The notes beneath the pieces were generated by a model. The model saw only the letters and a program-made list of their open reading frames with translations, did no database searches and was not told where the DNA came from. Positions 15,111-61,406 of a stretch of 64,000 nucleotides of DNA are shown in pieces. Made by a program: the position numbers and the translations under genes. Origin of the DNA: Bryoerythrophyllum caledonicum (Eukaryota; Streptophyta; Bryopsida; Pottiales; Pottiaceae); contig OZ020517.1 in NCBI GenBank assembly GCA_963971425.1, forward strand, positions 5,768,501-5,832,500. Reading direction: 5' to 3'. Position 1 is the first letter of the stretch; every line of letters begins with the position of its first letter.

Positions 15111-15163
15111 ACAATATGCTGATAGAAGGGAGATCTCTACATTTTGGTAGCACAAGCTTCTTC

Positions 15164-39640: not shown

Positions 39641-40424
39641 TGGATTCGCTGCTAAGAAGTGTAGTTGGAGGCACAGATCTGAGTGCCAACACTAGTATCC
39701 CCGCCTTCAGCTACTTACCACATCAGATCTGGCACATCTACTCTCACTTTGCAAAAACCCATCTACCACTGATCTGAATATGAGCCCAATCCAACATCTC
39801 CAACTCTTGCGCAGCTCTACAAACGCCCAGACTAGCCTCAGTTCCACTACAAACGAGGGCTCCACAACAACTCCAGCTACTTGTTGTTGTGTCAAGTGCG
39901 TGGTTCCTGAGACTAAGTCCTTCCACTCCCCTCACCACAAATCTCGGAGCTCTACTCAGTCATTTTTCCGCATACAACCAACTAGTGTCATGGTTAGTTA
40001 CTACAAGCTCGGAGGTGACTTAGCTTGGGAGAAGTGTGGAGTAACTAAATGTCAACTTCTTAGTGGTGGAACGAACATACGCTTTATTCATAGTGGCCTC
40101 CAATGGAGACCAAAATTCTTCTTCTCCAACTCCTAGAGAACTTGGGAAATTTTGGGGGACCTTTAGCTTCCATTGGATGTGGGCCAAGAATATCAATTGG
40201 CATTATTCATGGGTGCATTAAAAAGATACAAGATTTGTTTATATTTGATTCTTTTTCATATTTGAATCTTGCTGTCTATCTCATCTTGTCTTTCCTCTTG
40301 TCGAAGGGCTTTCAGGATTATTCTATTGTAACTCATAGGAATTACAGTGGGCATCTCCATGCCAAATAATCAATTGATTTGGAAAAAATAAAATTAAAAA
40401 AATAAATATATATATATATATACA
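39641..40424. other. Spacer between LINE and Helitron array
   Basis: Short open frames only (39780-40136 plus strand, Ser/Thr-rich, no domain). Ends in an AT dinucleotide run at 40405-40421 next to the Helitron terminus. Confidence 0.35.
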
Positions 40425-40843
40425 CTAGCAGTTGGCGCTTGCTTTGCAACGCATTAGTTCAACCATTTTAATGTAGTTTTTATGTCACAAAATATTTAAA
40501 AAAAGGTAACAACAATCTACATAAAATACAAATATGTCTTTGAAACCTATGCATGAATTTCAATAATGTAATATAATAGAATAGAAAAAAAATAAGGTTT
40601 TAGATTTTTTGCATTTTAACATGGAATTTCAAAAATGTTTTGAACGTCAAATTTGTAACAAAGAGTTTCAAATTTGTTTTGGATAAGCACAAATTGCAAC
40701 ACACGAATGCAAATTTGACACACCCAGAAACTCAAGTCCCTTAATTTCAAAACCGCGTAGTAAACCACACAACAATCAACCGCACAGTCAAACATGCAGT
40801 CAACGGCACAAGAACTACGCAAATTATGATTTTAGTAGTATGA
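40425..40843 (-). mobile_element. Helitron H1, non-autonomous, 419 bp
   Basis: On the minus strand it starts TCATACTACTAAAATCATAA and ends with a GCGTTGC-AAA-GCAAGCGC hairpin, six bases and CTAG. The 3' flanking base is T, as expected for Helitron insertion between A and T. Its 5' end abuts the CTAG of H2. No helicase or Rep coding. Confidence 0.85.
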
Positions 40844-40875
40844 CTAGCAGTTGGCGCTTGCTTTGCAACGCAGTA
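40844..40875 (-). mobile_element. Helitron H2, 3' terminal fragment
   Basis: CTAG terminus plus the same hairpin as H1 and H3, cut after AGTA by the 19.1-kb element. The rest of H2 resumes at 59988. Joining the two parts with one AGTA gives GCAACGCAGTAGTCCAACC, matching the uninterrupted H1/H3 GCAACGCATTAGTTCAACC. Confidence 0.85.
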
Positions 40876-40876
40876 A

Positions 40877-40902
40877 ACACGCAATTAAGCAATTATGCAC
40901 TT
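40877..40902 (+). repeat. Left terminal inverted repeat of the 19.1-kb element
   Basis: 26 bp, identical in reverse complement to 59961-59986. It is followed within 20 bp by AAGTGCAC, which is inverted relative to the TGCACTT inside the repeat and could form a hairpin. Confidence 0.9.
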
Positions 40903-41446
40903 GGCCATTTAAAAAGTGCACTTGGGTACAACGGCGGCCATTGCGAACAAAAGTGGCAAAATTGCAAAAAAAAAAAAATTCAAAAAAAAAAGTTTTCCAA
41001 AGGAAAAAAATTGAGCTTCTGCAACAATATTACGTACAATCATGGTTGTTAATATTGGAAGCGATATTTTGGCATTTTCAACTAATTTGTGGTGGCCCCT
41101 CGTTAATACTAGATAAATTTGTATTTAATATAGTTTCACAATATTTCAAAGATAGATTTGAAGGATTGTAGTATACAAACAGGTGTAATCACAAAAAAAC
41201 ATACTTTATGTAAGGGTTGGGAGTTGATTAAAAGATATTCTACGTAGTACATAATGCATACAATGGTGGAAACTAAATATAGATGCTTCTATAATTGGAC
41301 TTAGCACCAATAGTAAACACAACTTTACTCTAAAGGATTAATGACATAACGTCTTACATCACCCTTAGAATATACTACTCTTACACATACACTATAATAT
41401 ATCAATTACCATACACAACTAGTATACTCTCAAAAAGGCACACTAT

Positions 41447-44400
41447 CTACTTCATAGAATTTAGGGCTGCTTGCAAACGATCGTCATCGATAGCTTTGGT
41501 TTGCATTGTAATATATTGTAGTATGTGAGCCTTTGCCGATTGAAGAATGCGAATCCTACTTTCAACCTGCACTCCATATACATTGCGCTTTCTCCACCCG
41601 CTAGCCCCTGACATGGTTCTTTCCGGTGTGTCTATCCATGAAAAATGCATGCATCTTTCTCTACCCAACTATGGTTTTTCCCAGGTGGCTCCCAAATTGA
41701 GTCCATGCAATTTGCATACCGCTGTGCAGAAGACCCATGCCCATCAACAACCCCCGTTTGGATGATGGGCCAATACCAACAAATCTTTATCTTAAGTCTC
41801 TATCGGTTTTTTCCTTCCTTAATCACTTTCCCACATAGAATGGTACACCGCCTTCTATTTCTGCTCGATCAACACTCAAGGCTACAAATTGTCCACAACA
41901 AATATCAGATTGTGGATTAAATGGTGGAAATGGATCGTGATTACCTTCATACCTTGTTCCTTCTTCGGATCGTTCTTCAACATAGTTGCGCTCTGTTCGT
42001 TGTGCCCTGCGCAATGCTTGATTAGAGGGTCTTCCTCTACGAGGACCAAAGTATCCTCGAGCCTCGGCATTTAGAAGCATCGCCACTACCTGCTCTACGA
42101 CATCTATCTCGTGATTTTCTTCACTTGCACCATCTATTACATCCAAAGATGCACTATCTGTAGGTCCGGTGTTGGAGAACTCTGAAGGCCAAAACGGTGA
42201 CGAACGATGCTCATTGCTACAATCTTTGTGTGGAAATTCAGCTAAATAGAGTTTCAATCTTTCAGCCTCTATTTTTGCCTCACAATTCTTGTCCTCATGC
42301 TGCAATCTTTAGATGCACCTTTGTTTATATACAATGAAGTCATCCAACGCCTTTAACTCCCATTCGTCTGTTCCAAATACTTCCGCAAACGATGGTCGCT
42401 CATCCCTACTTGGCAACGGCCTCAAAGTTTTCGTCCCTGCCTCCGGTCCCCATGGATCCTTGCAATAATGCTTGTGTTGTACTCAAACCTCACGAGTCCC
42501 TTCTCGATTGTCCATATTGAATTGTATGTGGTAAGGAAATGTTATGCCCACTAATGAATCATGACCTGTTAGTAAGTGAGGAGTTATGAAAAACTTCCAA
42601 TCCCATACATTCTCTAGCAGCCGGGCGCTAATAAATGCCTCCGTAGGAGATGTTCCTCGTTCTATAAGACTCATCATTTCCTTCAACGAGTCCACGTCCG
42701 ACCTCTTCAACGTATTTGATATACAACTAAAGCGTTGATCAATATCTTCGTTTGTATGGCCCACTATAAGAAAAGATAGTTCCACCTCCTGAAAAAACCC
42801 CAATCCCACCAATGTAGCACATAGAGCAAACATATAAATGTTTTTGTTCTCGCATGTGCAGTTGTCCGCTTGAATTCGCAATGTTGGTGGTAAAAAGCTC
42901 TTCCTCCGCAACACATCTCCTATCACGTACAACAATGTACTCTCGACTTGGTTGCTATCGTGTTTGTGGTGAGTCCTAAACCACACATCGCAATATAAAC
43001 CAATGTCATGTACAAGAGCACCACACAGATGGGTCTTCACAAACCGATGTTCAATGTTCTTCACAGTCTGCCGCATCCTCGGTACCATGGTCGTATTTTG
43101 GTCCATGCCATCCACTATGATGCACATGTACAACTCAGGGCTAATGTAACACGACCTCTTGAATATCCAATAATGCCTACATTCTTCCATCTGGTTGCGC
43201 ATATTTAACATAAACAAATCATTTATCTTTATCCTTGCATCCGCATTGGTGGTCCCTTCTATGCAACATTTATACTCCCAACACTGATAACACTTTGAGA
43301 ATCTCGAGAATGGAGGTACCTGAACATAGGGATACTTGATGCGCGACATCTTCCGGAACGAACTCATAGAAATGGTTTCTCCATTACAAATTCTCTTGAC
43401 CTCCTCGTTCACGTAATTGAATACATCAAATTTGGCTGTTTTCAAAGGAAGGAGAATGAGAGGCACCACTTCGTTGTCACTCTTACAGCGAATACAACGA
43501 TGAGGTTGAGGACAACCAGCTTCATCGACAAACCATTCAAAGCAAGCCTCTGCCGCAGACATTCTAGTGCTCTCCCTAATCGGATCTGAAAGGGTATTGT
43601 CGTGAATCGATGTCGCTCTTCCATATATCAGACAATCCTTCTTCAATTGCTTAAAGCGCCTCTGTGAATATCTAACCCCAAGAGCGTAGCAAGCATTGCA
43701 AACTTGTTTTCCATCTAACTTTGTTACAAACTTGTCTCGACGAGTTCCTTCCGTCCTTGTGTGAAAAGAAACCAGCATCTATCTCATCCACGTACTTCGT
43801 ACTGAAAACTCATTCGTCCATGCATTATAATGCATCTCCATTAGATACCTTGTTGGAACGTCCCTCAAACAATTACATTTGCATCCTCCTTGTGCCATTG
43901 CAATTTGCACGCTTCTAAGCGATACCTTAGATGGTGCAGCTTCTGTCAATGATGTCTCTCTTGAATCTCTCATTCTCCTATTTTGCATAGAATATGGACG
44001 ACGTGTTGGTCTAACATAAGCAAATCCATCTACATGGGTCAAATCTTGGATATTTGAGGGAGTAGATTGGAAAAACGACGAATTTTCATCTACGGCATTT
44101 GAAGCATGACTACTGCGTCGAGACCTCTCAGTGGATCCTGGTGTGTTGATGAACTCAGGAAAATCAAACTCTGGGGCCATCACTTGTGTAGGTGCTATCT
44201 GTGATCCAATGTCACCATGGACACCTATCATATCAGATTCTACAGCCACTACACGTAGCAAAGACCAATGCGAACGAATGATCAAGCCCACACACATGCC
44301 AAGGTTTTCTCCTACAGTCTCTCTGGTCCAAGCAATGCATCATCAACCCTAGTGATATACACCGCCACCTCGAATGGGAACAACTTCGACCCATTCAATT

Positions 44401-44635
44401 TCATGCCGCTTTTGAATGCATGCTCCCTGGTTGCTAAGCCCACCACATCTCTTCTCTCAGAAAGCAATTCTACCGCCTTTTCTAATTCAGATGACATGAT
44501 CCCAATAGATCTCTGTTGAATTTGCCATGCACGTGTTGCTCGTACTAATCGAGCCGCCACAAAGCTATTGGAATGCATATTATCCCTTTGGATGTGTGGC
44601 CGTATCGAAGGAGTCTCAATCGTGCGGCTCTCCAT
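41447..44635 (-). pseudogene. DUF7869-like, possible transposase gene, decayed
   Basis: The best block (43778-42483) contains GKQVCNACY, a Cys-rich zinc-binding-like region (RCIRCKSD; CYQCWEYKC), VDGMDQN (about 43100), QADNCTCENKN (about 42855) and FLIVGHTNEDIDQRFS (about 42750). The DN..ENKN and GHTxEDIDQ pair is the hallmark of DUF7869 proteins; its spaced Asp residues suggest an RNase-H-like fold, but a transposase role is inference. Upstream 44297-43779 has CKCNCL and is in the same frame, separated by a single TAG (43779-43781). The N-terminal 44635-44312 block (helical, ELEKAVELL) is in another frame. Downstream 42305-41823 (CGQFVALSVDRAE) and 41816-41447 (CWYWPII; IWEPPGKNHSW; ASGWRKRNVYGV) complete the C-terminus with stops and frameshifts. 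Introns cannot be excluded. Confidence 0.7.
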
Positions 44636-44853
44636 TATTAGTATTGAAAAAATAGGAACATTATGGCTGCACATTAGTCAAAATACATGTACTAATTGTT
44701 AACCTTCAAAGCACCATTCATCTGATAAAAGATATGTTTCCAAACACATATTTACTGTTCAAAATATGATGATGATATTGGACCTTTTGATAAAACAACT
44801 TTGAAATGATAAAATTAAGAATTTGTAGAGCATGAACTTCTTGCACGGAGTCT

Positions 44854-45804
44854 TTAACCCTGAAGGTACAATGACAATCTTACACCGAAAACACTTCAAA
44901 ATTGTTGGATGCCAGTGCAATGATCAAAAAATGAAACGAAAACTTTTATTTCTAGTTTTGACCGTAGGATCTGAATAAAGACTTATTAAGTAAAATATGA
45001 ACAAAATTTCATAAAGTTTGACTGCACGGATTAAAAGATTATAGTGTTTGAAGTCAAGCATATGGTTCATTTATTTCCTTGCGTGGAGTGGATCTGCAGA
45101 CTTTGACTTCACTTGGTGTCTAATTTTTGCACTACATAAGGTCTAAATCCACAACCATCTTGTTAAGCATGATGTTAGTTCCTTGTACACCATTTTTAGA
45201 GGTAGAGAACGGGTGTAGCATATTCAAAACAATTGTGCATGGAGTGGAAGTTCGGAATTTGTTAATTCACACTGTGGTTTTTTCTGAACTCAATATGTTT
45301 TAGATTGGTAGTCCAAATGGTAAATAAAAAGGTTTACACCACATATAGTTGTGGAAAAAATAAAAAGTGAAAAATAAAAAGATATCTAGGTTTTATTTGG
45401 AAAACAAGAAGTTTTTTGGGAACCTTGTCCAACAATGAGTGACAATGTGTGAAAATGTTTGACTTAGGTTGATATGTTATTTTTCACTAAAGACAAGAAC
45501 TTATTTTGACAACATCAAGGAAAATAATATTACTTGCAAGTACTGAAAATCTCACATTCAACAGAGTGTCCTAGCAAGAGATTTTGGACATGCCCGACTT
45601 GCCCGCTCTCCCCATTTGAAATTCAAAATCCTATTTTTTTTTTATCAAATGTCTAATTTAGGTAAAAATTGTATTCCCACTAAAGTTTTGGTAATGCCTT
45701 TCTATAGTAAAATTTTCAAAGATGAATGTTAGAAATTGACACCATAAGAATCTGATTGAACTTTCAAGAAGCCCATTTTTGACACTTGATCCTTTAGGGA
45801 TTAA
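44854..45804 (+). mobile_element. DR1 element, TTAA-flanked, 943 bp
   Basis: TTAA (44854-44857) then CCCTGAAGGTACAATGACA; ends TGACACTTGATCCTTTAGGGA then TTAA (45801-45804). The body matches 15164-16140 in reverse complement and the 47900-48600 copy in direct orientation. Non-coding. Because it lies inside the 19.1-kb element it probably inserted after that element did. Confidence 0.65.
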
Positions 45805-47168
45805 ATATGCTACATCCCTTTTGCATCTCTAAACATTGGTATAAAATAGAACTAATATAATTTCTAACATGATGATAATAAATCTAGATCATGTGTAACG
45901 CAATCTTTTGAATCCAAGTGAAGTGAAACGAAGGGAATCCACTGAACCTAGGGAAGAAAATGAACCATGTTCTCTACTTGCTATTACTGACACCATTGAA
46001 ACTTGTTACAATCGCTAATAAAAGAAAGGATTTGTACATCCATATAAAGGTTATTCTACAAACAACATAGTACAGAAGTTCAATCAACACATAATATTAA
46101 AGTTGTATAAAAATAAATGTTTATCTCAAGATACGTTGCACGTGTTAGTGGTACACGCACTGTTGCTTGATGGCGTTCAACATTAAATCACCATTCCGTC
46201 GTTTTTGAACATGTTTTTCAACTCTTCCCACTTTACCTGCAACACATGCATAAAATTTATATGGTAAACTGTGTGATAAAAACTCCTAAGTATCTTCATA
46301 TTACATATAGCTTGAAATTTTAATATTATATGTAAAAAGTGGGAACATAAGGAGAAACAAAGCAAAAGGTCCAAAGTTCAAAAGTCAAATTTTCACTAGT
46401 AAACTTGAGGCACAAGGTTACAACATGGATATAAGGTTTCTATGCAAATGTGGAGGTCATTTCTTTTCCCAATTTCTAAGGTGAGCTCTCTTGCAATCAA
46501 AGCCTCAAGGCGATGTGATTTTTACTTCATTCACTAATTACTGTAAACTTTGTGTACTGTGTAGATTGGAGGAAATTTGCACATCGAGGAGATTCTTGCA
46601 ACTTTGGAAGGCTTTTGAATCTGTTTCAATTCTCAAAATGAGGGAACTCCAGGGTTAGGTTCATGATCTTTGAAGTTCAGTTAGAGTTATGAGTGTTACG
46701 TGAGTACAAATATTTTGATACACAAATGAGGACACCAACTTGAGTACGTCCAAAATTGCAAATTCAACAAAGTTGAGTGAATACACATGTAGCAGTCAAC
46801 AACTCGTGAGTTCAGCCTTCGTTCAAATGAAGTTATTACACCAAAACCACACTAAATTGATGTCAAGAGAGTAGCTAGCAGTATGGCACTAAATCCTTAG
46901 AATGGCACATGAACGCACTACCTTAAACCCTAGCTGCCACACCCAGGCACCCAAACCCTAGCCGCCACACCCAAATCCTAGCTGCCGCAATCAAACCCTA
47001 GCCGCCGTTTCCATGGAGTTCGCACGTCACCTCATGGAGTAACTGTAGACTTGAGGTGTGCGCGCGCACACCCCCAACTGCTGATGCTCCTCCATCAATT
47101 CGAAAACAACCTGGCCTTTGTGAGTTTCCGTCGCGTGAAATCTCTTGACGACGGTGAGAAAGAGCTTC
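45805..47168. other. Repeat-rich centre of the 19.1-kb element, left of gap
   Basis: 45805-46010 repeats the middle of DR1 (GCTACATCCCTTTTGCATCTCTAAACATTGG block). 46920-47010 holds four or five copies of AACCCTAGCCGCCACACCC-like units. 47056-47075 is an alternating GTGTGCGCGCGCACACCCCC palindrome. No gene recognised. Confidence 0.4.
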
Positions 47169-47368
47169 NNNNNNNNNNNNNNNNNNNNNNNNNNNNNNNN
47201 NNNNNNNNNNNNNNNNNNNNNNNNNNNNNNNNNNNNNNNNNNNNNNNNNNNNNNNNNNNNNNNNNNNNNNNNNNNNNNNNNNNNNNNNNNNNNNNNNNNN
47301 NNNNNNNNNNNNNNNNNNNNNNNNNNNNNNNNNNNNNNNNNNNNNNNNNNNNNNNNNNNNNNNNNNNN
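47169..47368. other. Assembly gap of 200 N
   Basis: Exactly 200 N, so its size is probably a placeholder. It is flanked by the GC-rich palindromic and C-rich sequence of the element centre, which may have defeated assembly. Any frame crossing it is meaningless. Confidence 0.99.
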
Positions 47369-47880
47369 CTCCATAAACTTGTGGCTACTTTTTTTTTCTC
47401 TCCATTCCTCACACCTATTCTCACACCCCAACTATTCTCCTTCTCTCTCCCAAACCCTAGCCGCCCACAACTTCTCTCCCTCACACCTCCCCTCCATTCC
47501 TCTCCCTCACAACTCTTCTCTCCTCACCCTACGCCCTCACAAGTTCCTCTCTCACAAACCCACAAACCTCTCCCTCCTCCAAACCCTCTCTCTCACACTT
47601 GCAACCTCCTCACTACTATGGCAGGGGTGTGCACGCGCACACCCCTCCTTGGACTACCCAAGGATTGATATCCTCAATTCATACCCTCTAAACGAAAACC
47701 CTAATTTTCAAACCCTAATTGATACCCTTGTCAAATACCTATGTTGATAACCGGATGTTGGTATCCATGAAATCATACCCTGGTTGTGATACCCTCGCTA
47801 TTGATACCCAAAGTACCATAGTCCATAAATGGTGTAGAGAATATCTCAAACATAACTCGTCAAAAATGCTTGTTTTAGTG
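47369..47880. other. C-rich sequence right of gap
   Basis: CTCTCCCTCACA-type low-complexity sequence to about 47600, then GGGGTGTGCACGCGCACACCCC (an imperfect palindrome near 47625, similar to the one at 47056) and AT-rich GATACCC repeats. The two palindromes either side of the gap could be the inverted ends of a small insertion. Confidence 0.4.
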
Positions 47881-47899
47881 CAATTAGCTTGGATGAAAA

Positions 47900-48600
47900 A
47901 ATAAAGTTTTTTTTTGTAGTTTTAACCGTAGGATCTCAATAAAAACTTATTACGTAATATACTCACAAAATTTCATAAAGTTTTACTGCACGGATTGAAA
48001 AATTATAATGTTTGAAGTTGAGAAAAGGCTCATTTTCATCCCTGCGTTTTATGGATCAACAGACTTTGACTTCAATTGGTGTCCAATTTTTGCATTTTAA
48101 AGGGTCTCAATAAATTACCATAATGTTAAACATGATGTTAGTTTGCTATATACCAATTTTTAGAGGTAGACAACGAGTGTAGCATATTCAAAAAAATTAT
48201 GCAATGAGTGGAGGTTCAAAAATTCTCAATTCACGTTATATTTTCTGGGGAACTCGATATTGTTTTAAATGAGAATCCAAATGGTCAAAAAGAAGGTTTA
48301 CATCACATAATGCCATAGGAAAAATCAAAAGTGAATCATACAAAGATCTCAAAGTTTTATGTGGAAAGGTAGTGGTTTTTTTGGTACCTTGGCCGAAAAT
48401 GTGTGACAATGTGTGAAAATAATTGACTTGGATCAATATGCTATTTCACCAAAGAACTAAGAACATGCTTAACACAATGGTATTGGATTTAGATCTTCCG
48501 TAGTCCAAAAGTTTTTAGAGGTAGAGAAGGGGTGTAGCATGTTCAAAAAAAATAGTGCAATGAGTGGTGGTTCAAAAATTCTTAGTCCATACTAATAGTG
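47900..48600 (+). repeat. DR1 partial copy upstream of the ParB-like gene
   Basis: Colinear with 44930-45500: CCGTAGGATCT, AAATTTCATAAAGTTT, CTGCACGGATT, CAGACTTTGACTTCA, TTTTTAGAGGTAGA. The CCC/GGG ends are missing, and the copy stops about 45 bp before the first ATG of the ParB-like gene, so it now forms that gene's upstream region. Confidence 0.6.
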
Positions 48601-48644
48601 ACTATCGTTTTGTAATGATATACAGGTTTTTTGAGTGTGGTGTT

Positions 48645-51179
48645 ATGGCACCACCAAATATTGACAAAATCTGGGAGAGCCACGGTTGGTGGATCGCGGA
48701 AGTGGATGAGTCGAACGCCTTCTTGTGGGTGACGGATTATCCCTTTGAGTTGGAGAAGCGTGCATCGGCGTTGGGGAAGAGTTTTGGCAAAATCCACGCA
48801 ATCACTCTTCGATGCGATGATTTGGTATAGATTACTTGCACAGTGGGTCCAGGTCAAGCGAAGGTGAAGACTTCTGTTTCGAATAAGTTGCTTCTTGCAC
48901 CTGTCCCTTTGAATCTTCTTCAAAATCCAGGTCAAGTGAAATTCCTCAAATCATTGCGGACGTTTTGGTTGAACATCTCTCTTGCGGTACGCACTGCTAG
49001 AAAGAATAACGTCTTACCTTGTTTAGCGTTATCACCGGAGATAGTGCTGAAGGTTAGAAAGATTATGGAGGAATATATTAGATATGAGGCATTACGGGAG
49101 AGGGACCCATCACGTGCGACAATTCAAGCGCCACCAGCGGAACCAGAAGAAACAGAAGTTTATCGAATTCTTGCTGAGCCGTTGCAACTCGATTGACGAC
49201 CACTGGAGGGGGGGAGGGGAAATGGAGGCCAACATCCCACCACGGTTTCTGAGGTACAGACATTACCGAATCCTCCATTAACGAGTAGACATCCTACGAG
49301 TAGATGCAAAGGCCACGGCATGTTGAGAGTGATGTAGCTTCTGGTTCAAGAGAAGGCCCATCAAGTTTGGATCCCAGCGGGAGGAGGTTGATTGGGACAA
49401 TTGTAAGATCCGGTGGCACGGTTCCAAGGTCGGGGCTCAGGACGCCTAATGGTCATCGTAGGGCCCCTACATCTACACCGGGAGATTTAGTTGATTTGTC
49501 AGCCATGGCGCCGGAAGAAGAAGCATTTCACAACCTATTTGACAGTGTACCAGAGGATTTTGAAGACAATGCGGAGATACCACAGGATGTTTCAACTTCA
49601 ATGTATTTAAAAGCTTCAGTGCCTACAACGGAGGAGATTGCAAAAGGATCAGCGTAGGGGAATTTTGTGTTTAAGGCACACATAGACCGCATTGTCTTTG
49701 TGGAGAATCCGGAAACAAACCACCGGGTTTTATCACAGAAGAGGGTCAGAGAAGTATTTAACCATTTAACAGACCCTGAATCCGCGACTCGGGTGAGTAG
49801 ATTGGTAATTCCACCGATCAGATACATCGTGCATACTACCACCGATGATGGTGTCGTTGAGAAGGAGGAGCTGCCATTTCCGTTGGTAGGAACCGCACGA
49901 GAATTTGAGCGCATGTTCATTGCACACGGGAGTGCTTCTACACATGGTGCTATGAGATCCCAATGTTCTTGGCTTCAAGATCATATCATTTGGGAACCGG
50001 TGGATGGGCAACACATAGTAGCAGCTTGTGAGTTTGCACAACACGAGTGGAGAGATGGTACCATGTCTTTAAATGAGTACCTAGACACGTTCGAGTGGCG
50101 GGAGGTTTTTTTTGTGGTGTATGATGATCGTCGCTTTTACATTGAGAAGTCTGCACGGATCAACGTGGCGAAGTTCCAGAGACATTCATATTCTACCATG
50201 GAGGAGGATTTAAGAAAGCTCCGTCAGGTTTGGGATCTATACGGGAGTCGTGATAGCACACTACGTGCGGACAACGCACGCAGGGCTGTTGCTTTGGTGA
50301 GTGCGGCAAGTGCAGTGCATAAATTGCCCAAGGAGGATGGAATTGTCATGGTGAAGAGGTTGGCTAAAAACATGGAGGATTTGACCAATCATGCATGAAA
50401 TCCGAGCAATGATTGCTTCCCTATCATTCAAGTATGCAAGGACTACAAAGACGGCATTATCTTTTACAGCAAGGAAGAAGAGGACAAGTGGAAGGACATA
50501 GCAAAGAAGAAAGAGCTGGATCCAAATGTGGACATACGACCAACAAGAAAGGAGATGACCCAGAATTGGTTGAGGCCATTAGGTAGGGTTCCGAATCCAT
50601 ATTATCTTCAGTTGGCAAAGTCTGCTGCAGCGAAGCCGGTGAAGGGGGATGGAGTAAGACCTCGTCAAGCATATTACTTCGACGGTGTAAAAGACAAGAA
50701 TCCACATCCTCGTACGATTACCGGTGTGGTTGATCGATATCAGAGACGAGAAGTTGTGATGAATTCCATCCGTTGGTTCATTGTGGAGAAGAAGGAAAGT
50801 ACACCTGATTCCATGGAGGAGTTCTTTCGTATCCGAATAGGGAAGTGTTTTCCGAGGAGTAACGCACAACTTGATACCATTGGAAAGCTTTTGAATGGTA
50901 CCACGAAAAAAACTTGGACTGCTCATGTGTGGGGAAAGGTGTCTAAACTGGAAGACATAGGCTATCATTCCATCATGTTTCATTTTGGTGACATTGCAAC
51001 AGGGGGGGGCGTGGATACATTGGACTGTCCGTGGATGTGGAAGGACAGGCTACTGCTAATTGGGAATGACAGATAGAAGTCAAGACGCCACGCCAAAGCG
51101 ACTACATAGAGCTGGGGAAACCATGTTTGTGGGTGATTGATTGTTGACGTGGCAGTGGGAGGCATGGAGATGGTCATTG
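48645..51179 (+). pseudogene. ParB-like gene of the 19.1-kb element, 5' part
   Basis: Starts MAPPNIDKIWESHGWW. The frame continues through a TAG at 48828, ends in TGA at 49194, then shifts; 49304-51076 is again one frame broken by TAG at 49655 and TGA at 50396. Around 49991-50032 the protein reads IIWEPVDGQHIVAACEFAQ, like the DGxHR box of ParB/sulfiredoxin-fold proteins but with Ile for Arg. Downstream are charged blocks (FVVYDDRRFYIEKSARIN; VRPRQAYYFDG; NSIRWFIVEKKE; RIRIGKCFPRS; DTLDCPWMWKD). The whole is over 800 codons. Function unknown; a DNA-binding or nucleotide-hydrolysing role is speculative. The gene is interrupted at 51180 and continues at 58004. Confidence 0.65.
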
Positions 51180-52549
51180 CACTATAAGAAACTCGTGATT
51201 TTTGTGACGTTAGCTGTGATCTAGTGTGTTTTTCAAAACATGTTTTTGCGAACGGGCCGTGCCTTGGGCTTTCGGATTTTGGTGGATGTTGCACCAAACA
51301 TGAAAAATTGGCGGAAAAACGCAGAGATGTTAGCATAAACGTATTTGTTTTGCGGGACGTCCTAGTGAACATAGTCATGTTTTAGACAACGTCCTCAGAA
51401 AGGTGACAATGCCACGTCGGCAGGGAGGTTTCAGATTCACTGTGAGTAACTTCGAGATTGTTACTGCAACCTCCCGTAAAACGCTGCCCAACGGTTAAAA
51501 CACAATGGAGATGGGCTGACCCCTACAAAAATAAAAACGTGGATGTCGTTACTGACGTCACAAAAAACGTGGATGTCGCTACTGACGTCACAAAAAACGT
51601 GTTTGAGCCACGTAGGCAAGGTAGAAATTGGATTCTTTTAAAATATTTGTGCCACGTAGGCAAGGTTGAAATCAACTGCCACGTAGGCAAAGAGGTTGTT
51701 GGAACAGACGTCTGGATGGACGTCTACTGTGACATTTTAATGTTTATGCTAACACGAGGCTAACACCATGACAAATCCAATAATCCCATATGGATTGTCA
51801 CCACTTGTGCATCCCATTATATATATATGTAAGGCCTTCTCTCCTATCTCATCACACTTGAATCAAGATTGATTCACTTTCATCCATCTATTTGGATGAA
51901 TTTGAATTACCCTTGAAACTTAAAGTGATACGGTACTTCTTGATGACATGGCGCTTCTTTTTGGTGACATGGCACTTGCTTTTGCTGTCTTGGTGCTTGC
52001 TTTTGGTGACCTCCATCTCAACGAACGTCACAAAAAACGTCATAACGAACGTCACAGAAAACATACCGTGTTAGAAATGACGTCCCAATTTACACTGTCC
52101 ACAATTAATTATTGCATTAAACTATGCTGATTGGACATGCCACGTCATATTTTAAAAAGTGACACGTCATATTTTAAAGGCGCCACGTCATAAAATGGCG
52201 GGTCCACGTATGCAAGCCTAGTCACAATCTAATGCCACGTCATGCGCCACATCATGGGCCACATTACCAAGGGCCCGGATGAAAAATTTGGGGATGTGGC
52301 ACTGCCCGTCCATGTGGCCATGACGTGGACGCGACGTGGCAGCCACATGGCAGATTTTTAACACCTTCAACCCCCAAGTTTTTGTGACGTTTTAAAAAAC
52401 GTGGGCCTGTTTTTTGAGATTTTGGCATGTTTTTTGCATGTCAATTATAACGGATTTTTTTGGACGTCAACGTTGACGTGCCGGATGCTGCACAAAACAT
52501 AATTGCACGTTAGTTGCCCTGTCACAAAAAACACGGGTTTCTTATAGTG
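51180..52549. mobile_element. Mini-CACTA transposon, 1370 bp, non-autonomous
   Basis: Ends CACTATAAGAAA...TTTCTTATAGTG, extending to about 29 bp of imperfect inverted repeat, with a 3-bp TTG duplication (51177-51179, 52550-52552). The interior is full of subterminal motifs in both orientations (CACAAAAAACGT, GACGTCAC, GCCACGT), the usual transposase-binding arrays of CACTA elements. No transposase ORF. It splits the ParB-like gene. Confidence 0.93.
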
Positions 52550-52797
52550 TTGGGGAGACACCCAGTTGTCGTAGCACGGGTTGGCAAGTATTCTCATCTT
52601 AACACAAAGATACCCTAAGGTATTCGTTCCCACAGAGAATCACCCAGAACTACAACGACTGACAACAGTCCTAGGGCTATACAACACTAAACATACCACA
52701 ATAGATACATAATAAGAAAGAAAAGAAAGGTTAGGTCATATGGTTTAGTTTTATCTACAACCACCCTCCTCCTTTACCGAAAGGGAAGGGCTTCACC

Positions 52798-52895
52798 CCT
52801 TGGGCGGAAACCCACGGCGGACGCCCACGGCAGATACCCCCGGCGGACACCCCCGGTGGCTACCCACGGCAGACCCACACGGCGGACACCCACTA
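52798..52895. repeat. Short tandem repeat ACCCACGGCGG
   Basis: Seven or so 13-16 bp units of the form ACCCNCGGCGGAC/CAGA near the left end of the 5.4-kb element. Confidence 0.8.
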
Positions 52896-53256
52896 AGTCC
52901 TTGGGCAGGAGTACTGTACACCTACATACACTTTAGACATTCGGAGATCATAAGCATCCGGAGAGGGGGGAGAGTATATCACCACGGACGATTGCTCCGT
53001 GGACTTGTAGAGATTTTGGGGTTTTACACAAGTTTCATCTTTCCTTCCTTTCTCCTATTCTATCGACTCCTACTTCTAACTTGAGATGGTTGGAGTTTCA
53101 CTGTATTTCCCCCGTTAGGGAGGGGGTTTAGGCCCTTGGCCTCTAGGACTTATGTAATTCTCGTGGCGGCCACGTAGTTCTACCTACCTACTATCTGAAT
53201 TAGTAGTCCTTCCTTTACCTCGAAATGGCTAAAAGAGCTTTATCTAGGGGGTCCAC

Positions 53257-53534
53257 ATAGACATCCGCACAAGAGACCATAGACTCTACTCCTTTCCTTC
53301 AGAGGATGACCTCCTTTCCTTCAGAGGATGACGTCCTTCATCCCTCACCTCCAATAGACATCCGCACAAAGGGGGGTTAGTTAGCTTTCCGTCCTTCCCT
53401 CAAGGTAACCCGAGCTATTAGAGTAGGTCCTAGTTGTATCCGCATAGACATCCGCACAAGGGATCTAACCAGGTCCTATTCAATCCTTAACACATGGTTT
53501 TTGGGTCAGCCCTTACCAATAGACATCCGCACAA
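53257..53534. repeat. Four spaced copies of ATAGACATCCGCACAA
   Basis: Copies at 53257-53272, 53354-53369, 53444-53459 and 53519-53534, spaced 75-97 bp. The core is exact while the spacers differ, so this is not a simple satellite and might be a bound motif in the terminal region of the element. No CRISPR character. Confidence 0.75.
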
Positions 53535-54301
53535 AGGAGAAGACTGAAGCTAGACTCAATGTTTTAAGGTAAGTTAACGCTCCTTACGACTCAACCATCC
53601 GACCAAAGGTTAGTGTAGCGGGAATCTGACTACGCCCTCACAACCGGCTACATCCGCCACCGATAGGTCACACAAGGCACAACAAGACTCCTCCCTCACC
53701 GGTCACTCCCCCCCTTGTCCTTCCCTAAACCCGTACAATCTCATCTGTTATTCCCATCCACCCGGACTAACCCTACTTGATGGAACAAGGAAACAATTGC
53801 ACGAGTAAGAGTTAGAGTCACGTCCGACTAACCCCCTAGCCATCTCACATGTTATTCCCATCCACACGTCTAACTCTACTTTGATGGAAGAAGGAAACAA
53901 CAACTTCGGTGGTTAGTATAGACTTGAGGAGTGGACTACTTGAAATGGTACTCACAATCACGTATGCAATCCGAGCTCTCCAACCATGGAGGGTTTTCTG
54001 AGAGCGTAGGTTTAGAATTCAAACCGAAAGCAAATACATACAACAAGCAGTGAAGGGAGGAGCCAAGAGGCTCCTCACTTATACTGCAGCAAACACAAAC
54101 TAGCGTCCAAAACAAGAGATGCCATCTAACTAAACATGGTGGCATTAACTACCTTTGACGGCGTAGCCGTCAACCCACCAACTCAACGCCAAGTCAAAAG
54201 GCATCTAAACACAACTCCCAAGGCAAAACTAGTCAAACTCCAAAGTCAAACCGGGGCCTAGTCCGCGAATGAACAGTGACCTATAAACTAAGATACTAAC
54301 C

Positions 54302-56296
54302 CTACTGCCGGGTCGACTCCTCAAGTCTTCTCTTCTCTTCCTTCCTCTTCCGCTTCTTGGTAGTCCGACTTGAGGTCGACTTGGAGGCGGCCTTCGCAAG
54401 AGTTGCCAAGGGAAATAACAAATCTGCGGACAACGAGGAAGCAGGTCCGGACACGGACGCATGAGGGAGGGTCTCCCTCGAGGTCAAAGAGGCTTCCGGA
54501 CCACCCGAAGTGAGTAACACGGAAGTAGTGCTTGGATGAAGCTCGGGTCGGGTCGTGAAGGCGGGTACCGGGCTTGGAGTCGCGGTGAAGACCTTCTCCG
54601 CAGCAATGGGTCCGGACTTGTCCTTCATGGATACCGGAAGGTGCAAGTAAGCGCAGCTCTCACTCGTGGACCTCCCCGGGTGAGATACACTCGGCAAAGG
54701 CGCCACGAATGGCGCGTCGCGAACGGGGTCTCCAAGAGGGAGGGTGTGGGGACCAACCTTGGATGAAGGCTCCCCCGTGACACCCGTGTCCTCCTTCCTA
54801 CCGCCATGTACCTGCGTGGTGATCTCCGAAGGGGAAGGGCATGCAGCAACTCCCACCACTAAAGCTCGGGGTGGAAGGTCTGGGCTATCAAGATCAACCA
54901 CCTCTTTCGACTTGTCTTGGCCACCCAAACCCTGCCCACCCGAGTCCGTTTCTAATCCTGAAGTGTCAAAATCCTCCACAATCTTGGGTAGAATGTGGGT
55001 GAGGTTCTCTACCAACAACCTCATGTTAGCATAAGCTTCCTCCACTTTGACGGTCTGCTCCACCATGAAGGCAATCACCCTCTTGCTGGAAATATGGCCA
55101 TCCCTCTCTAACTTGGCGTCGAACATCTTGGCCTTTGCTACTACATCCGTCGGGAAGTGCAAGGCCTCCTCCACCTGTTGCAATGCTGCTACCGAGGTGT
55201 TGGCTCGCAGAAGAGCTTCCCTACAATTCTTCTCCGCCTCCACTGCCCGGCTCCTCATCTTGGTCATGTCAAGGATGAGCTTGATGATCTTCTGCTCCAG
55301 GGTGCGGAGGTCACCAACTCCTCCAACCTTCTCCTTGACCGCATCAACCAATCTTTCATGCGAGGGATTGCCCACCAAACCGCTCACCTGTCCTAAGGTC
55401 CTGTCCATGTCCTCCACATACACACGAAGGGCTTCAACCAACTCAGAGGCTGGGTAAGTCTTACCCCCAAGTTGAGCTGGACCGGTGGCGGCGGCGCGGA
55501 TGGCGGCTCGGGTGCAGGTGGAGGGGGCTCCTCCCTGTCTCTGCCTCTTGCGCTTGGGAGGTGGTAGAGCCTCCTCCTTCGACTACGAAGTACTACTCCC
55601 TCCCTCCAATCCTTGCTCGGGCTCTGACTCAGTTCCTTCAAACTTCTTGAGCATGAGTTGTGTCCCGTAAGCAATGTCCTCCTCCGGAGAGGTCTTTTAG
55701 AAATTATGGTAGAGGTGGATCAAGAAAGAACAGATGGGAGAGCGTTTGGTGTTGTTGATGCCCTTGGTCAACCTGAGCACCACCTCCCGCACGATGATGG
55801 CCCAATTCACCACCCGTTCTCCAAGGTAAGAGCCATACAAAGTGTTAGCTAGTGTAACCGTGACTCTAGTGGGCTTCTCCGGGTGCAAGATGGGTACAAG
55901 GAAGGAGAAGACCCTCTTTGCTCGGGGATCCAAGCAATCTCGTAAGGCATAACCGCTCTTGGCATCCTTGGTGTCAAACTTCCCCTTTGCATACTCCTCC
56001 TTCTTCAAGCTTGTCCATCCCGCTCCCTACCTTGGAAAACCATACACCTCCTGCCATCTTCCCATTGTCCATCGATCCGGGTAAGCTCGGATGCTATCTC
56101 CCTCTGGTAGCGGCAAGGGGGCTTGCCGGAGCTCCTGCACCGTTGAATCAACCCGGAAATCCCAACAGAATTCTAAGAGAGAAAGACACCCCATCCGGAG
56201 GAGATCCTCCTCAAGCTCGGTTCGTTCCAGAGGGTTTTTGGGGAGGAGTGGAGAGATCTCCTTTGCCATAGTCGTTACCGGGTTAGAGGAGGCCAT
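54302..56296 (-). pseudogene. Gag-like / plant transposon-type ORF
   Basis: A single frame of about 665 codons with stops near 56027, 55697 and 55560. N-terminal MASSNPVTTMAKEI; then CLDPRAKRVFSFLVPILHPEKPTR, TLANTLYGSYLGERVVNWAIIVREVV, SPICSFLIHLYH, which resembles the gag-like domain of some plant retroelements (recalled pattern). A long helical, probably coiled-coil region (55441-55000) and a Ser/Pro-rich tail ending in KKRKRKEEKRR follow. Nuclear localisation of the product is plausible. No knuckle or protease. Confidence 0.55.
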
Positions 56297-56529
56297 GCTC
56301 CTCGGCTGTGCAGGTAATCTGTTAAAAGGCCGAGCTCAACGTGGCTCGGATGGAGAGTCCCTACTTACTCCCTCGAGTCTTCTTTTCTGGTCGTCTCGGG
56401 TCTCCTTCCCTTGGCTCGGTCTCAGGCCTCCTTCTTGGCTCGTATTGCGCCCACAGCTCGGCTCCTCCTAGCTGCCTCGGCTCGGATTGCAGGCTGTTTG
56501 GAAGAGTGTTCGGTGCAAGGATGCTCCAG

Positions 56530-57335
56530 CTGCCCGGATCGTGACTCGGATCCAGCGGTGCCGGTGTGCTCCCTACTCGGATGCTGTGGTGCCGAGGTGC
56601 TCCCTAGGTTGCTCGGATATGCTCTTCCGGGTGTTGGGACGCTCCCTGCTCGGATGCTGTGGTATTGAGGTGCTCACCTAGGTTGCTCGGATATGCTCTT
56701 CCGGGTGCTGGGACGCTCCCTGCTCGGATGCTGTGGTGCCGAGGTGCCCCCGCTCCAAGGTATTCCCTGCTCGGATGCTGTGGTGTTGAGATGCTCACCT
56801 AGGTTGCTCGGATGTTGTGGTGCCGAGGTGCTCCCTAGGTTGCTCGGATATGCTCTTCCGGGTGCTGGGACGCTCCCTGCTCGGATGTTGTGGTGCCGAG
56901 ACGCCCCCTGCTCGGATATGCTCTTCCGGATGTTGGGACGCTCCCTGCTCGGATGTTGTGGTGCCGAGGTGCCCCCTGCTCGGATATGCTCTTCCAGGTG
57001 TTGGGATGCTCTCTACTCGGATGTTGTGGTGCCGAGGTGCTCCCTAGGTTGCTCGGATATACTCTTCCGGGTGTTGGGACGCTCCCTGCTCGGATGCTGT
57101 GGTGTCGAGGTGCCCCGTGCTCGGATATGCTCTTCCGGGTGTTAGGATGCTCCCTGCTCGGATGCTGTGGTGCCGAGGTGCTCACCTAGGCTGCTCGGAT
57201 ATGCTCTTCCGGGTGTTGGGACGCTCCCTGCTCGGATGCTGTGGTGCCGAGGTGCTCCAGCTCCGGGGTGCTCCCTACTCGGATGCTGTGGTGCCGAGGT
57301 GCTCCCGCTCCGAGGTGTTCCATGTTCGGATGTTC
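56530..57335. repeat. GC-rich satellite of CTCGGATATGCTCTTCCGGG units
   Basis: At least ten units combining GATATGCTCTTCCGGGTGTTGGGACG and CTCCCTGCTCGGATGNTGTGGTGCCGAGGTGC in 60-120 bp higher-order arrangements. All three plus-strand frames stay open, giving artefactual Cys/Leu-rich repeats. It is at the 5' side (minus strand) of the gag-like ORF. Confidence 0.9.
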
Positions 57336-57554
57336 CCTCTGTTGAGCGGTATACCTCCCCCTCCTCTGTTGGTATGCTGCACCGTTCCGGCTGCTTGGCT
57401 GCTTTAGGCGTGGTGTTTCCTTCTTGTTTGGTGCAATCGGGCTGCTCGGCCGTTGACTTCTAGGATGGCAGGGAAGTTTCCTTCCCAGGCCCTCCTCATT
57501 CTTTGTGCCCTTGTTCCTCGTCTTTTCGTTGTTGCCTTCCTTCGAACAGGGTCC

Positions 57555-57815
57555 TCTCGAGCTCGGATGAGCTTTCCTCCAGCTCGGATGAGCCCTCCGG
57601 CTCGGATGAGCTCAGATGGTTTCCCTTCAGCTCGGATGAGCTCGGATGAGCTTTCCTCCAGCTCGGATGAGCCTTCCAGCTCGGATGAGCTCAGATGAGC
57701 TTTGGGGGTGACCCGGCTACCCCGGTTGGGGTGGCTTGGTTGCCTCTGGGTCGGTTGGGGTGGCTTGGTTGCCTCTGGGTTGGTTGGGGTGGCTTGGTTG
57801 CCTCCGGGTCGGTTG
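57555..57815. repeat. Two further tandem arrays (CAGCTCGGATGAG and GGTTGGGGTGGCTTGGTTGCCTC)
   Basis: 57555-57705: about ten CTCGGATGAGCT(TTCCTCCAG) units. 57716-57812: three copies of a 31-bp GGTTGGGGTGGCTTGGTTGCC unit. Both share the CTCGGATG word with the larger satellite. Confidence 0.85.
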
Positions 57816-58003
57816 GACAAGGCATGGTCTAGCCCTGGTTTTAACTATTTTAGTGGGTTCCACACCTCTGATCTTGGCTCTTATCCTAATACTACTAAAG
57901 CTTAATATAGGGGTAATCTAACCCCTCAAACATGAGTTATTTTGTACTATTTAAACTATTCTAAACTATCAACTAAATTTTTTTGAAAATTCGTGGTACG
58001 ACA

Positions 58004-59387
58004 CCAGTTATCCGCAGCTTTTGCACAGCTGACATTATGGATGGCAAATATTGGACGATGGAACGTCATCTTCTTGTTACCAACGGCTCTGTATGCGAAC
58101 GAAGTGTTTTTCACGAAAGTGAAGCTTCCAGAGGGATGTACTATGCGACGTAGATGTTGGGCATTTGATCCGAACTCGGTTAATCCTTATGCTCTCGATT
58201 TTACAGAGAATGGGCGTCTGGAGCAAGTAGTACAACCAATTGGCAATGTTGTGATTTGTATGCAGCACCTTGTGGGTACATCTCTTGGCCCGAATTATGT
58301 TTCTGGAGACGTTCACTTCCACTTGTATTTTTGGATCACTGGAGTGAGGCACGCCAACCCTCTGAAGTTGATTCACTTCAGAGATCTCCATCAGAGCTGG
58401 CAAGACTAGTAGGCTCGTATTTACCCCATGGTTGGGGTTTAGTGGCGTGTAACATATCTACGGCCATTCCCACGATCCTTGAAGGAGATTTCCAGGAATC
58501 TGAGATTTTTATCATTGACGATTGTACAGACAGAGTTTCATTCGTGTACAATGAGTTGTCTGACAATTTCCAAGGACGATTGTTGGTCAGGATTGGTGGA
58601 ACAAGTACTGGTTGCAACATCGTACATGAGACCGAACAGACGGTTGGTGGAGTGAAGAATGAAGACGACAATGAAAATGAAGGTGGTTTACATGAGAGAT
58701 TGCCACGTTCAGGTACCACTGAAGATTCTTTATCTCGTAGTAGCCCGATGTATAGGACTTCAGACACCGATGAAGATGAAGTGAACCAATCTCCTCCAAG
58801 AGAGAAGATTCCATTAACGCAGCGGGCAATGGGAGATACTTCAGCGGAGACGTCTGCAACACCTACAGAGAGGATGCAAGATACAGGTGTAGTAGATGTT
58901 AGTTTGGCGGTAGGGGCAGGAGGGGGGCGTATATTTGATGGTCCTAGGCTGGAGATGGAGGAAGAAGGATTGGATTTATGTGAATTTTTTTTCGGTGTAG
59001 AAGAGGATTCCACAGCCTTCAATGCCTTCTCAATCAGAGCCTGTATCAGAGATACAAGAGACGTTCAGAGGTACTCAGAGTGATACCAGACCAGGTTTGC
59101 CTTCCGTTCCAAGATCTAGCGTATCCGAGGACATCATTGCATTTCAGGGAGCCTTCTCATCAGAGCGAGAGATGTCTTTCAATACAGAGGATGGTTTTTT
59201 CTACAATGATGATAGCGTAAGACATATGCGGGAGGGTGTTCCTGGCAATTGTCAATATGTTGAGTGTGTGCCCATTAGCATCGAAGATGTGGAAGATCGT
59301 CTAGTGCAGGATTATGAACTATCCGCTATGGTAGGTAGCGCCATTAGACACGTGGAGGGAGTCGTTCCGCTAGAAGATGAGCTCTGA
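58004..59387 (+). pseudogene. ParB-like gene of the 19.1-kb element, 3' part
   Basis: After the insertion the reading continues in one frame (ANIGRWNVIFLLPTALYANE; PYALDFTENGRLEQVVQPIG) to about 58350, shifts, and runs in the next frame to about 59080 (LVGSYLPHGWGLVACN; EGDFQESEIFIIDDCTDRV; FQGRLLVRIGG), then in a third frame to TGA at 59387. The last 300 residues are acidic and low-complexity (NEDDNENEGG; DTDEDEVNQSPP), an unstructured tail. Two frameshifts show decay. Confidence 0.6.
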
Positions 59388-59390
59388 GCC

Positions 59391-59944
59391 ATGGAGCTAT
59401 ATACTATAGTAGAGCATGCACGCAGTTTAGGTGGCAAGTACATCAGTATAATGCAGTTTGAGATGTGTCTATCGTTTCGTGGGTGGTATATACTTATATA
59501 TTGGGTGGTCCATATGATATGTTTGATTTTAGAATCCCTCAGCAATAGTATGGAATTATTTGATTATGTATGTTTTTGCATTATAAAATACAGTGAGGTA
59601 CTTTACACTATTGTTGGAAATTGCATATATATTTTTTTGTATCTCTTACACATTGTATTTGAAGTGGAGTACTCTAAAATCCTATAATAATTCAAAACAC
59701 ATTTATAATCTCTTTGGGCACATGATTATAATTTTGTAGCAGGATGTATAAACTAGATTAGAAATCATATATTTTCTAAAAAAAGGTAGCGAATGTAAAA
59801 TATATATTACTGATATGAACATTAAGATGCCAATGTTTGACTCGATAAACACCAAAATTTTGTGACAAAAAACATACCAGAATTTTGCCAAATTTTGATT
59901 TTTTTTTAAGTTATGAGCAAATAACTTGCGGCTTTCTACCAGCA
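59391..59944. other. Subterminal non-coding region of the 19.1-kb element
   Basis: AT-rich, with no gene. Candidate 3' UTR of the ParB-like gene, followed by the right terminal inverted repeat. Confidence 0.4.
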
Positions 59945-59960
59945 ACCAGTGCACTTAGCT

Positions 59961-59986
59961 AAGTGCATAATTGCTTAATTGCGTGT
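59961..59986 (-). repeat. Right terminal inverted repeat of the 19.1-kb element
   Basis: Mirror of 40877-40902. Its inner edge forms a perfect 18-bp palindrome, TGCACTTAGCTAAGTGCA (59950-59967), overlapping the repeat. This may be a transposase-binding or hairpin site. Confidence 0.9.
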
Positions 59987-59987
59987 A

Positions 59988-60259
59988 AGTAGTCCAACCA
60001 TTTTAATGTAGTTTTTATATTACAAAATATTTAAAAAAGAAAGGTAACATGGTTCACTACATTGTTGACTGCGTGGTTGATTACAACGTTTCTGTAGTTC
60101 AATGCACGGTGGACTGCGCGGTTGGCTGCAGCGTTTCCGTAGTTCATTGCATGTTGGACTGCGCGGTGGACTACATCGTTTCTGTAGCGCACTGCATGGT
60201 TGATTGCACGATTGATTGCTGCATGGATTATTGCACAAATTATGATTTTAGTAGTATGA
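59988..60259 (-). mobile_element. Helitron H2, remaining 5' part
   Basis: Starts with the second AGTA copy and GTCCAACCATTTTAATGTAG, as in H1/H3, and ends ...TTTTAGTAGTATGA, i.e. the TC end on the minus strand, directly against the CTAG of H3. It contains three about 50-bp units of the GTTTCTGTAGTTCAATGCACGG type (60085-60215) that H1 lacks. Confidence 0.85.
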
Positions 60260-61034
60260 CTAGCAGTTGGCGCTTGCTTTGCAACGCATTAGTTCAACCA
60301 TTTTAATGTAGTTATTATGTCGCAAAATATAAAAAGAGAAAGGTAACAACAATCTACATAAAATATAAATATGTCTTTGAGACCTATGCATGAATTTTTA
60401 TAATGTGATAGAATAGAATAGAAAAAAACGAATTAGGTTTTAGATTTTTTGCATTTTAACATGGAATTTCAAAAATGTTTTGAACATCAAATTTGTAATC
60501 AAGAGTTTCAAATTTGTTTTGGATAAGCACAAATTGCAACACACAAATGAAAATTTCACATACAACAAACTCAACTTGCATTTACAATCTCAATTTCACA
60601 CACCCACAAACTCAACTTGCAATTACAATCTCAATTTTTCACACCCACAAATTCAATTTGCAATTACAATCTCAAAGTATGCAATCTCACCTCAAAACTT
60701 GTAATTTCAACCTCCACAACTCGAATATGCAATTTTGCAACTCCAACTTTGTATGCCAACCTCCAAGATCACAACTCCAACTTCACAACTTTTGCACTTC
60801 AAGTTTACATAATTTACATTTCAATCTTTAAGTACTTAACTCAAAAAATATTTTGAACGTCAAATTTGTAATCAAGAACACAAATTGCAACACACAAATG
60901 CAAATTTGACACACCCAAAAACTCAAGACCCTAAATTTCAAAACCGCGCAGTAAACCACACAACAATCAACCGTGCAGTCAACCATGAAGTCAACCGCAC
61001 AGGAACTGCGCAGATTATGATTTCAGTAGTATGA
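60260..61034 (-). mobile_element. Helitron H3, non-autonomous, 775 bp
   Basis: CTAG plus hairpin at 60260 and TC end at 61034, with T at 61035, so the A/T insertion context is intact. Closely similar to H1, with an extra block holding three tandem copies of an about 43-bp unit (CACACCCACAAACTCAACTTG, 60590-60690). Confidence 0.87.
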
Positions 61035-61406
61035 TAGTAAAAATTCATTGATTGCTATATTAAGTTATCCTTGACACATGCATAGTTGATAACTCTTGAC
61101 TTGAGGCTCCAAGTAGAAAGCTTCTAGCATATCCAATCAAAATCCAAGGCTTTCTTGATCCTTCATTGACTACGTGGACCATGAGGCACTAGGAGAACCT
61201 ATGATGGTAATAGATTATGCAGAATCTTATTTATACATTGGGTACATTTCATCATGACCCCACTTCAAATAAATCAATGTAGTTTGTCAATACATGCATC
61301 AATTGGAGATCGGAGAGATGTGTTGAGAAGATCTTTTACAACTCTAAGTGCAATATGAAGAACTCAACGACAACGGACAATTGTGGTGAATATTACAACT
61401 AAGGTA
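61035..61406. other. Spacer
   Basis: AT-rich, with no ORF or repeat boundary recognised other than the Helitron target T and the MITE target TA at its ends. Confidence 0.35.

Follow-up and report, generated by a model that had tools for sequence, protein, structure and literature searches.

A two-gene DNA transposon family with a putative DUF7869 transposase in the moss Bryoerythrophyllum caledonicum

What kind of element placed a 19.1-kb block with two divergent genes inside a repeat of the moss Bryoerythrophyllum caledonicum, and do these genes drive its movement or travel with it as cargo? The block occupies positions 40876-59987 of a 64,000-nucleotide stretch of DNA (the window; C4:5768501-5832500 of the 437-Mb assembly), and it carries one gene encoding a domain of unknown function, DUF7869 (PF25273), and a second gene with a ParB-like motif. 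The first-pass annotation of this DNA had described it as a single mobile unit with identical 26-bp terminal inverted repeats (TIRs), an AGTA target site duplication and outward-pointing genes, and had assigned it to an undescribed family of large transposons. Our results indicate that the block is very probably a decayed copy of an abundant, recently active, autonomous two-gene cut-and-paste DNA transposon in which the DUF7869 protein is the predicted transposase, and the two genes look like the core of the element, not its cargo.

The ends of the element were located by an inverted-pair search in the window (40877-40905 and 59958-59986; 29 nt at 97%) and judged from other copies, which gave a 27-bp TIR, AACACGCAATTAAGCAATTATGCACTT, with complete ends reading A-ACACGC...GCGTGT-T. 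The left TIR lies at 40876-40902 on the plus strand, on the side of the DUF7869 gene, and the right TIR at 59961-59987 on the minus strand. All ten full-size copies had A before the left ACACGC and T after the right GCGTGT, and the outer A was present at 29 of 29 oriented ends (30 loci were sampled, among them L009, which had no orientation), while the right end of the window copy has A in place of the final T. The repeats are therefore paired as first described, only one base longer and, in this copy, not identical at the right terminal base. The AGTA duplication was read in the window flanks at 40872-40875 and 59988-59991, as had been claimed, and agrees with 4-bp duplications at other copies. 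With up to three mismatches, a 26-bp TIR pattern occurred at 1028 forward and 1054 reverse places, 2082 in total, in the assembly, and the reversed pattern used as a control occurred at none, indicating that the TIR is not a chance sequence.

Duplicated target sites were also found across the genome. Among 100 listed exact TIR places of the 2082, at least 26 convergent pairs were up to 25 kb apart, and flanks were examined for 24 of these (C1:11757843 and C2:2842702 were left out). The 4-bp flanks were identical in 17 pairs, agreed at three of four bases in six and at one of four in the remaining one, compared to identical flanks in 5 of 552 mismatched pairings; ten of ten full-size copies fetched had an exact duplication. 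Given that the duplicated words varied between copies, no fixed target word was seen. Two of the six pairs agreeing at three bases represent a 6-kb copy present twice, inverted, with the same flanks and 60 kb apart (C2:3103773-3109787 and C2:3164169-3170194), which points either to segmental duplication with inversion or to an error in the assembly.

Two empty sites were recovered. For the first, we joined both flanks of the window copy minus one AGTA (219 bp) and scored 40 of 2190 candidates; among 56 matches listed, 53 crossed the junction, two were the window's own flanks and one stopped short of it. Two of these loci, L070 and L071, were read base by base and had a single uninterrupted target, as ATTA, and the same was seen in two further stretches of the host repeat inside the window. 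This bears out the earlier statement that excision restores the host repeat. The host repeat itself (40400-40875 and 60000-61040), taken for a Helitron in the first-pass annotation, comprises local tandem units and has many paralogues genome-wide. The second empty site involves two family copies on C9, one inserted into the central region of the other; the inserted copy has its TIR from C9:18432387, a TTCA duplication and a single mismatch in its right TIR. Of 11 elements compared, the three best (L043, L035 and L039) had the invaded region intact, with TTCA present once. Together, TIRs, 4-bp duplications and two empty sites strongly support the earlier view that the block moved as a unit.

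Full-size copies had the same two-gene organization. Of 12 listed pairs spaced 11-15 kb, ten were fetched whole, and in all ten the two genes lay on either side of a noncoding centre and faced outward. The first-pass annotation had suggested looking for further copies in which paired ends with 4-bp duplications enclose both genes, and for empty sites; both were found and, together with the 2082 TIR places, they substantiate its proposal of a large transposon family. Nine of the ten were ∼88-95% identical among themselves and to the window copy, while L037 represented a subfamily, ∼74% identical over about half its length. In L041, and in no other copy of the ten, both genes were single open frames, with 1066 (DUF7869) and 1341 (second gene) codons; in L037, an open frame of 1377 codons spanned the second gene, while the DUF7869 gene was open for its last 950 codons, with the N-terminal part in another frame. 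Twelve of the examined pairs were shorter than 10 kb, and four of these were compared with full copies. Three (L010/L011, L013/L014 and L029/L030) retained both ends with internal sequence missing, as is typical of non-autonomous derivatives, and L053 (2.2 kb) matched full copies at its ends only, over ∼430 bp on one side and 70 bp on the other. L029/L030 was a 5.7-kb chimaera with one end L037-like (96%) and the other L041-like (92%).

The DUF7869 gene was closely tied to these ends. A genome search with PF25273 yielded 3600 candidates, and all 150 that were scored exceeded the cut-off, 69 of them in open frames of at least 1000 codons with the match free of stops; the same search in 14 control genomes gave no matches. 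In the part of the genome for which TIR places were listed (C1 and the initial 14.8 Mb of C2), ten of 14 DUF7869 matches had an exact TIR at 1555-1621 bp in the right orientation, and two more, L075 and L073, had a TIR with one and four mismatches, respectively. Of eight matches picked elsewhere, three had an exact TIR, one a TIR with four mismatches and one with seven, and three had none; the TIR with seven mismatches represents a second TIR type, AACATGGAATTCGCTAAATATGCACTT. Shuffled sequence gave at least nine mismatches. Eight additional matches, chosen for similar scores, were divided between exact TIRs (four) and the second type (four). In total, 25 of 30 DUF7869 genes tested had a TIR at the expected place, and for these the alternative raised by the first-pass annotation, that the genes regularly occur apart from the ends, does not hold.

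The second gene accompanied the first. A genome search with its protein gave 2005 candidates, of which 35 were scored and compared with 133 listed DUF7869 matches (17 on small contigs were left out). At least 22 of the 35 had a listed DUF7869 match within 12 kb in divergent orientation, compared to a random mean of 0.08 and maximum of 2, and the remaining 13 had no partner among the listed matches; 22 is a lower bound, given that just 150 of the 3600 DUF7869 candidates were listed. Between L041 and L037, the ratio of nonsynonymous to synonymous substitution rates (dN/dS) was 0.16 for DUF7869 (948 codons, dS 0.86) and 0.31 for the second gene (1302 codons, dS 1.13), which indicates that both proteins were under purifying selection between subfamilies. 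The family was also recently active, as near-identical copies occur at unrelated sites: five copies of the second TIR type were 99.0-100% identical over ∼1.7 kb, gaps left out, and agreed at only 26-37 of 100 bases outward of the TIR, which is the chance level, so that homology stops at the TIR. Two copies located 24 kb apart on C9 (L085 and L086) were identical across 1752 bases.

Conserved acidic residues in the DUF7869 protein suggest a catalytic role. D223, D305 and D345 were invariant in a seven-member alignment (A5), and in a larger alignment of 82 proteins (A2) D223 was present in 68/68, D226 in 67/69, D345 in 55/58 and D347 in 55/57 rows. These acids lie in IVDGMDQ, followed after 81 residues by QADN and after 39 more by GHTHEDIDQ, and the order and spacing of D223, D305 and D345 would be those expected for an RNase H-like DDD core. 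We recovered 98 DUF7869 homologues, mostly from jgi and ena sets and nearly all without an informative name. Searches of viral contigs confirmed no relative. Among 99 candidate stretches in genome contigs, four (L093-L096) encoded DUF7869 relatives; their contigs are 3.2-6.4 kb long, were binned in metagenome-assembled genomes of bacteria and possibly represent eukaryotic contamination. In the literature, searches for DUF7869 and for the motif strings GHTHEDID and DGMDQ, the only terms tried, returned no paper.

The second protein had at least ten homologues of 1037-1488 aa in other data sets, 42-73% identical over the compared part (8000 best candidates scored), as well as nine shorter ones. 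Its conserved stretch, TNHRxL ... IIWEPVDGQHIVAAC, in which DGQH is invariant (alignment A4), presumably resembles the ParB/sulfiredoxin superfamily, and our ParB label applies at the motif level. A search of PHROGs gave only one match, at E 0.25, and phage records searched with the protein gave four records at E 2. By eye, we also noticed a likeness to a degenerate N6/N4 methyltransferase domain, with LWVIDCRRGGG at the DPPY position followed by a KPxELxRL-like stretch. Comparison of a seven-member methyltransferase alignment with the profile of the second protein gave no support for this candidate: the best alignment to the C-terminal part covered the suspected stretch at E 0.35 or 0.086, depending on direction, with a probability below 1%, and against the whole protein the suspected stretch ranked second (E 0.66), with values of 0.5 for the reversed control and 0.93 for DUF7869.

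Several observations weigh against our interpretation of a two-gene transposon with a DUF7869 transposase and a ParB-like partner. An exact target site duplication was missing in 7 of the 24 pairs, and both genes were interrupted in eight of ten full-size copies, as they are in the window. Five of the 30 DUF7869 genes tested (L072, L074, L076, L078 and L079) lacked a recognisable TIR where one was expected, and there are thus other end types or orphan genes; L076, L078 and L079, among the higher-scoring matches, perhaps belong to other subfamilies. D305 was weaker than the other two acids, being present in 58/67 rows of the larger alignment with N in 7, though many of the aligned rows may be decayed copies. 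A sequence search of PDB with DUF7869 found nothing. The single NCBI/UniRef sequence among the 98 homologues was from the sea urchin Lytechinus pictus, and no moss protein of the Sola superfamily was among them in a search that covers similar-length proteins sharing short words. For the second protein, the two open copies had no Pfam match at E ≤ 1, a Pfam scan of a 12-member set gave no ParB family, NCBIfam gave no match, and PDB sequence searches gave one match at E 1.1 and none to ParB; a model of a 246-aa part was weak, with a mean predicted local distance difference test (pLDDT) score of 56. The ParB-like character proposed in the first-pass annotation thus stands for the VDGQH motif and finds no counterpart in Pfam families.

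Under the two-gene transposon interpretation, we propose that the DUF7869 protein would act as a DDD transposase of the RNase H-like type, cleaving at the TIRs and integrating the element with a 4-bp stagger, and that the second protein, through its ParB-like VDGQH motif, might bind the element ends or centre and help in synapsis, protection or regulation. This assigns a candidate function to a domain of unknown function, and the many open, near-identical copies make this role directly testable. Given that the partner is conserved with the transposase between subfamilies, the role of ParB-like proteins in large eukaryotic transposons also becomes testable.

The known class that best fits these features, judging by its description, is Sola (Sola1-like), an assignment that we rate at even or marginally better. 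Sola elements are described as having a DDD transposase, 4-bp target site duplications, TIRs of 11-1124 bp and sizes mostly of 2-9 kb, with some above 15 kb; they occur in the moss Physcomitrella and are reportedly infrequent in flowering plants (PMC10741241). In amoebozoan Sola2 elements, the 4-bp duplications are AT-rich (PMC3627910). The element studied here has the same duplication length (exact in 17/24 pairs versus 5/552 mismatched pairings) and a 27-bp TIR within the reported range, and by description is alike in its putative DDD-type motif, large size and moss occurrence. The 21.5-kb Sola1-1_Ec32 of the brown alga Ectocarpus encodes its transposase on one strand and, on the other, a protein of 1104 aa with ParB-like and DNA methyltransferase parts (PMC12477816); it shares with the moss element its giant size and a transposase and ParB-like protein on opposite strands; however, its partner carries a methyltransferase domain, while none was detectable in the moss second protein by Pfam or profile comparison. 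The combination of putative DDD motif, 4-bp duplication and ParB-like partner therefore has precedent, and the earlier statement that the duplication and cargo fit no known plant superfamily is not supported. PIF/Harbinger and Nuwa likewise combine a transposase with a second DNA-binding-type protein, but canonical Harbinger duplications are 3 bp and the second protein of Nuwa has a Myb/SANT domain (PMC12730594), whereas here the duplication is 4 bp and neither protein has a Pfam match to those proteins. Duplications of 4 bp are also described in Ginger, piggyBac and some IS481EU elements (PMC10045372), which have other termini or another target word.

Other classes were considered and rejected, as their duplications or ends differ. 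CACTA/EnSpm (CAC...GTG ends, 3-bp duplication) is incompatible with AACACGC termini and a 4-bp duplication, and the latter also excludes Mutator-like elements (7-12 bp). hAT (usually 8 bp), Harbinger (3 bp) and piggyBac (TTAA) do not agree with 4-bp duplications of varied sequence. Ginger elements have 5'-TG...CA-3' ends and a Gypsy-type integrase, and here the termini are AACACGC and no integrase domain was found in either protein; IS481EU (TNT...AYA or TGT...ACA) is excluded by AACACGC...GCGTGTT termini. Polinton/Maverick elements carry self-synthesis genes; their 6-bp duplication differs from that found here, and a polymerase domain was present in neither protein.

The strongest rival to Sola membership, to which we give a considerable but clearly smaller chance, is that elements with DUF7869 make up an undescribed superfamily of eukaryotic DNA transposons in their own right, which would have the 4-bp duplication and ParB-like partner in common with Sola only through convergence or exchange of partners, with the mechanism otherwise as proposed above. 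The absence of DUF7869 and its motif strings from the searched literature is in line with such a superfamily, as is the absence of a Sola annotation from every homologue found, though nearly all of the 98 have no informative name, and TET/JBP genes are described as passing between fungal transposon superfamilies (PMC12730594). However, the putative DDD-type motif, 4-bp duplication, size and opposite-strand ParB-like partner all fit Sola as described, and the Lytechinus homologue agrees with the wide range of Sola. A more speculative extension, which we regard as somewhat doubtful, is an unrecognised superfamily of eukaryotic two-gene transposons with DUF7869 as the transposase, all of whose autonomous members would depend on a ParB-like partner; this partner could be a nucleotide-switched DNA clamp that derives from prokaryotic partition systems and is loaded on the element to join its distant ends.

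It is improbable that both genes are passengers of an element moved in trans by another transposase, as has been inferred for some giant algal transposons. Giant transposons whose genes all have no transposase homology do exist (PMC12477816), and the DUF7869 fold is predicted from motifs. Yet both genes are conserved between subfamilies, DUF7869 also occurs at the second TIR type (L077 and L084-L088), open frames are found in many copies, short copies have lost the genes, and the three conserved acids are ordered and spaced as in a DDD core. An assembly or segmental duplication artefact, in which a block with TIRs was copied by other means, has a negligible chance for the family as a whole: the twin 6-kb copy on C2 indicates that duplication or misassembly accounts for some of the copies, but copies at unrelated flanks have 4-bp duplications and the empty sites refute an artefact.

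Returning to the window, the length of the block reflects later insertions into a decayed two-gene transposon. The natural size of the element is ∼12.5 kb, and the window copy without nested inserts measures ∼12.3 kb; its comparison with L041 revealed a single long interruption at element coordinates 10305-17128 (51180-58003). Because this interval consists of two nested insertions, which account for the 19.1-kb span, we rejected a single 19-kb element: the transposon does extend over 40876-59987, as first described, and not all of that length is its own. The first insertion, at 51180-52549 inside the second gene, is a CACTA-type element foreign to the family (CACTATAAGAAA...TTTCTTATAGTG, TTG duplication). 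The second, at 52567-58003, is of the long terminal repeat (LTR) type (TGTCGTA...TACGACA), likewise foreign to the family, and is flanked by CCAGT at 52562-52566 and 58004-58008, with boundaries read by eye against L041, L047, L031 and L043. This insert is GC-rich and contains a 426-codon minus-strand frame (54302-55582), which had no Pfam match above the cut-off, as well as 31-bp repeats near 56544-57307.

The probable DDD transposase gene, encoding DUF7869, occupies 41448-44635 on the minus strand, with its ends set by alignment to L041. Its Pfam match (E = 1.1e-44) falls in the open reading frame at 42483-43778, and an in-frame stop interrupts the gene near 43779, as does a frame shift near 44330. 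The second gene occupies 48645-59387 on the plus strand, with the ParB-like VDGQH motif at 50000-50014, and is split by the nested insertions and interrupted; the two genes thus point outward, in agreement with the first description. Between them lies the noncoding centre (44636-48644), perhaps a shared promoter region, with direct repeats of ∼77% identity (44934-45482 and 47898-48446), which have matches in other copies as well. It also contains GC-rich inverted words of 20 nt (GGTGTGCGCGCGCACACCCC; 47055-47074 and 47624-47643), complementary at 95%, which flank a 200-base assembly gap at 47169-47368.

Elsewhere in the window, given that no direct repeats of at least 60 nt were found within 24000-41000, we consider LINE-like (long interspersed nuclear element) a retroelement at 27895-34371 on the minus strand, which has a reverse transcriptase match (E 6e-23) and weak endonuclease and RNase H matches.

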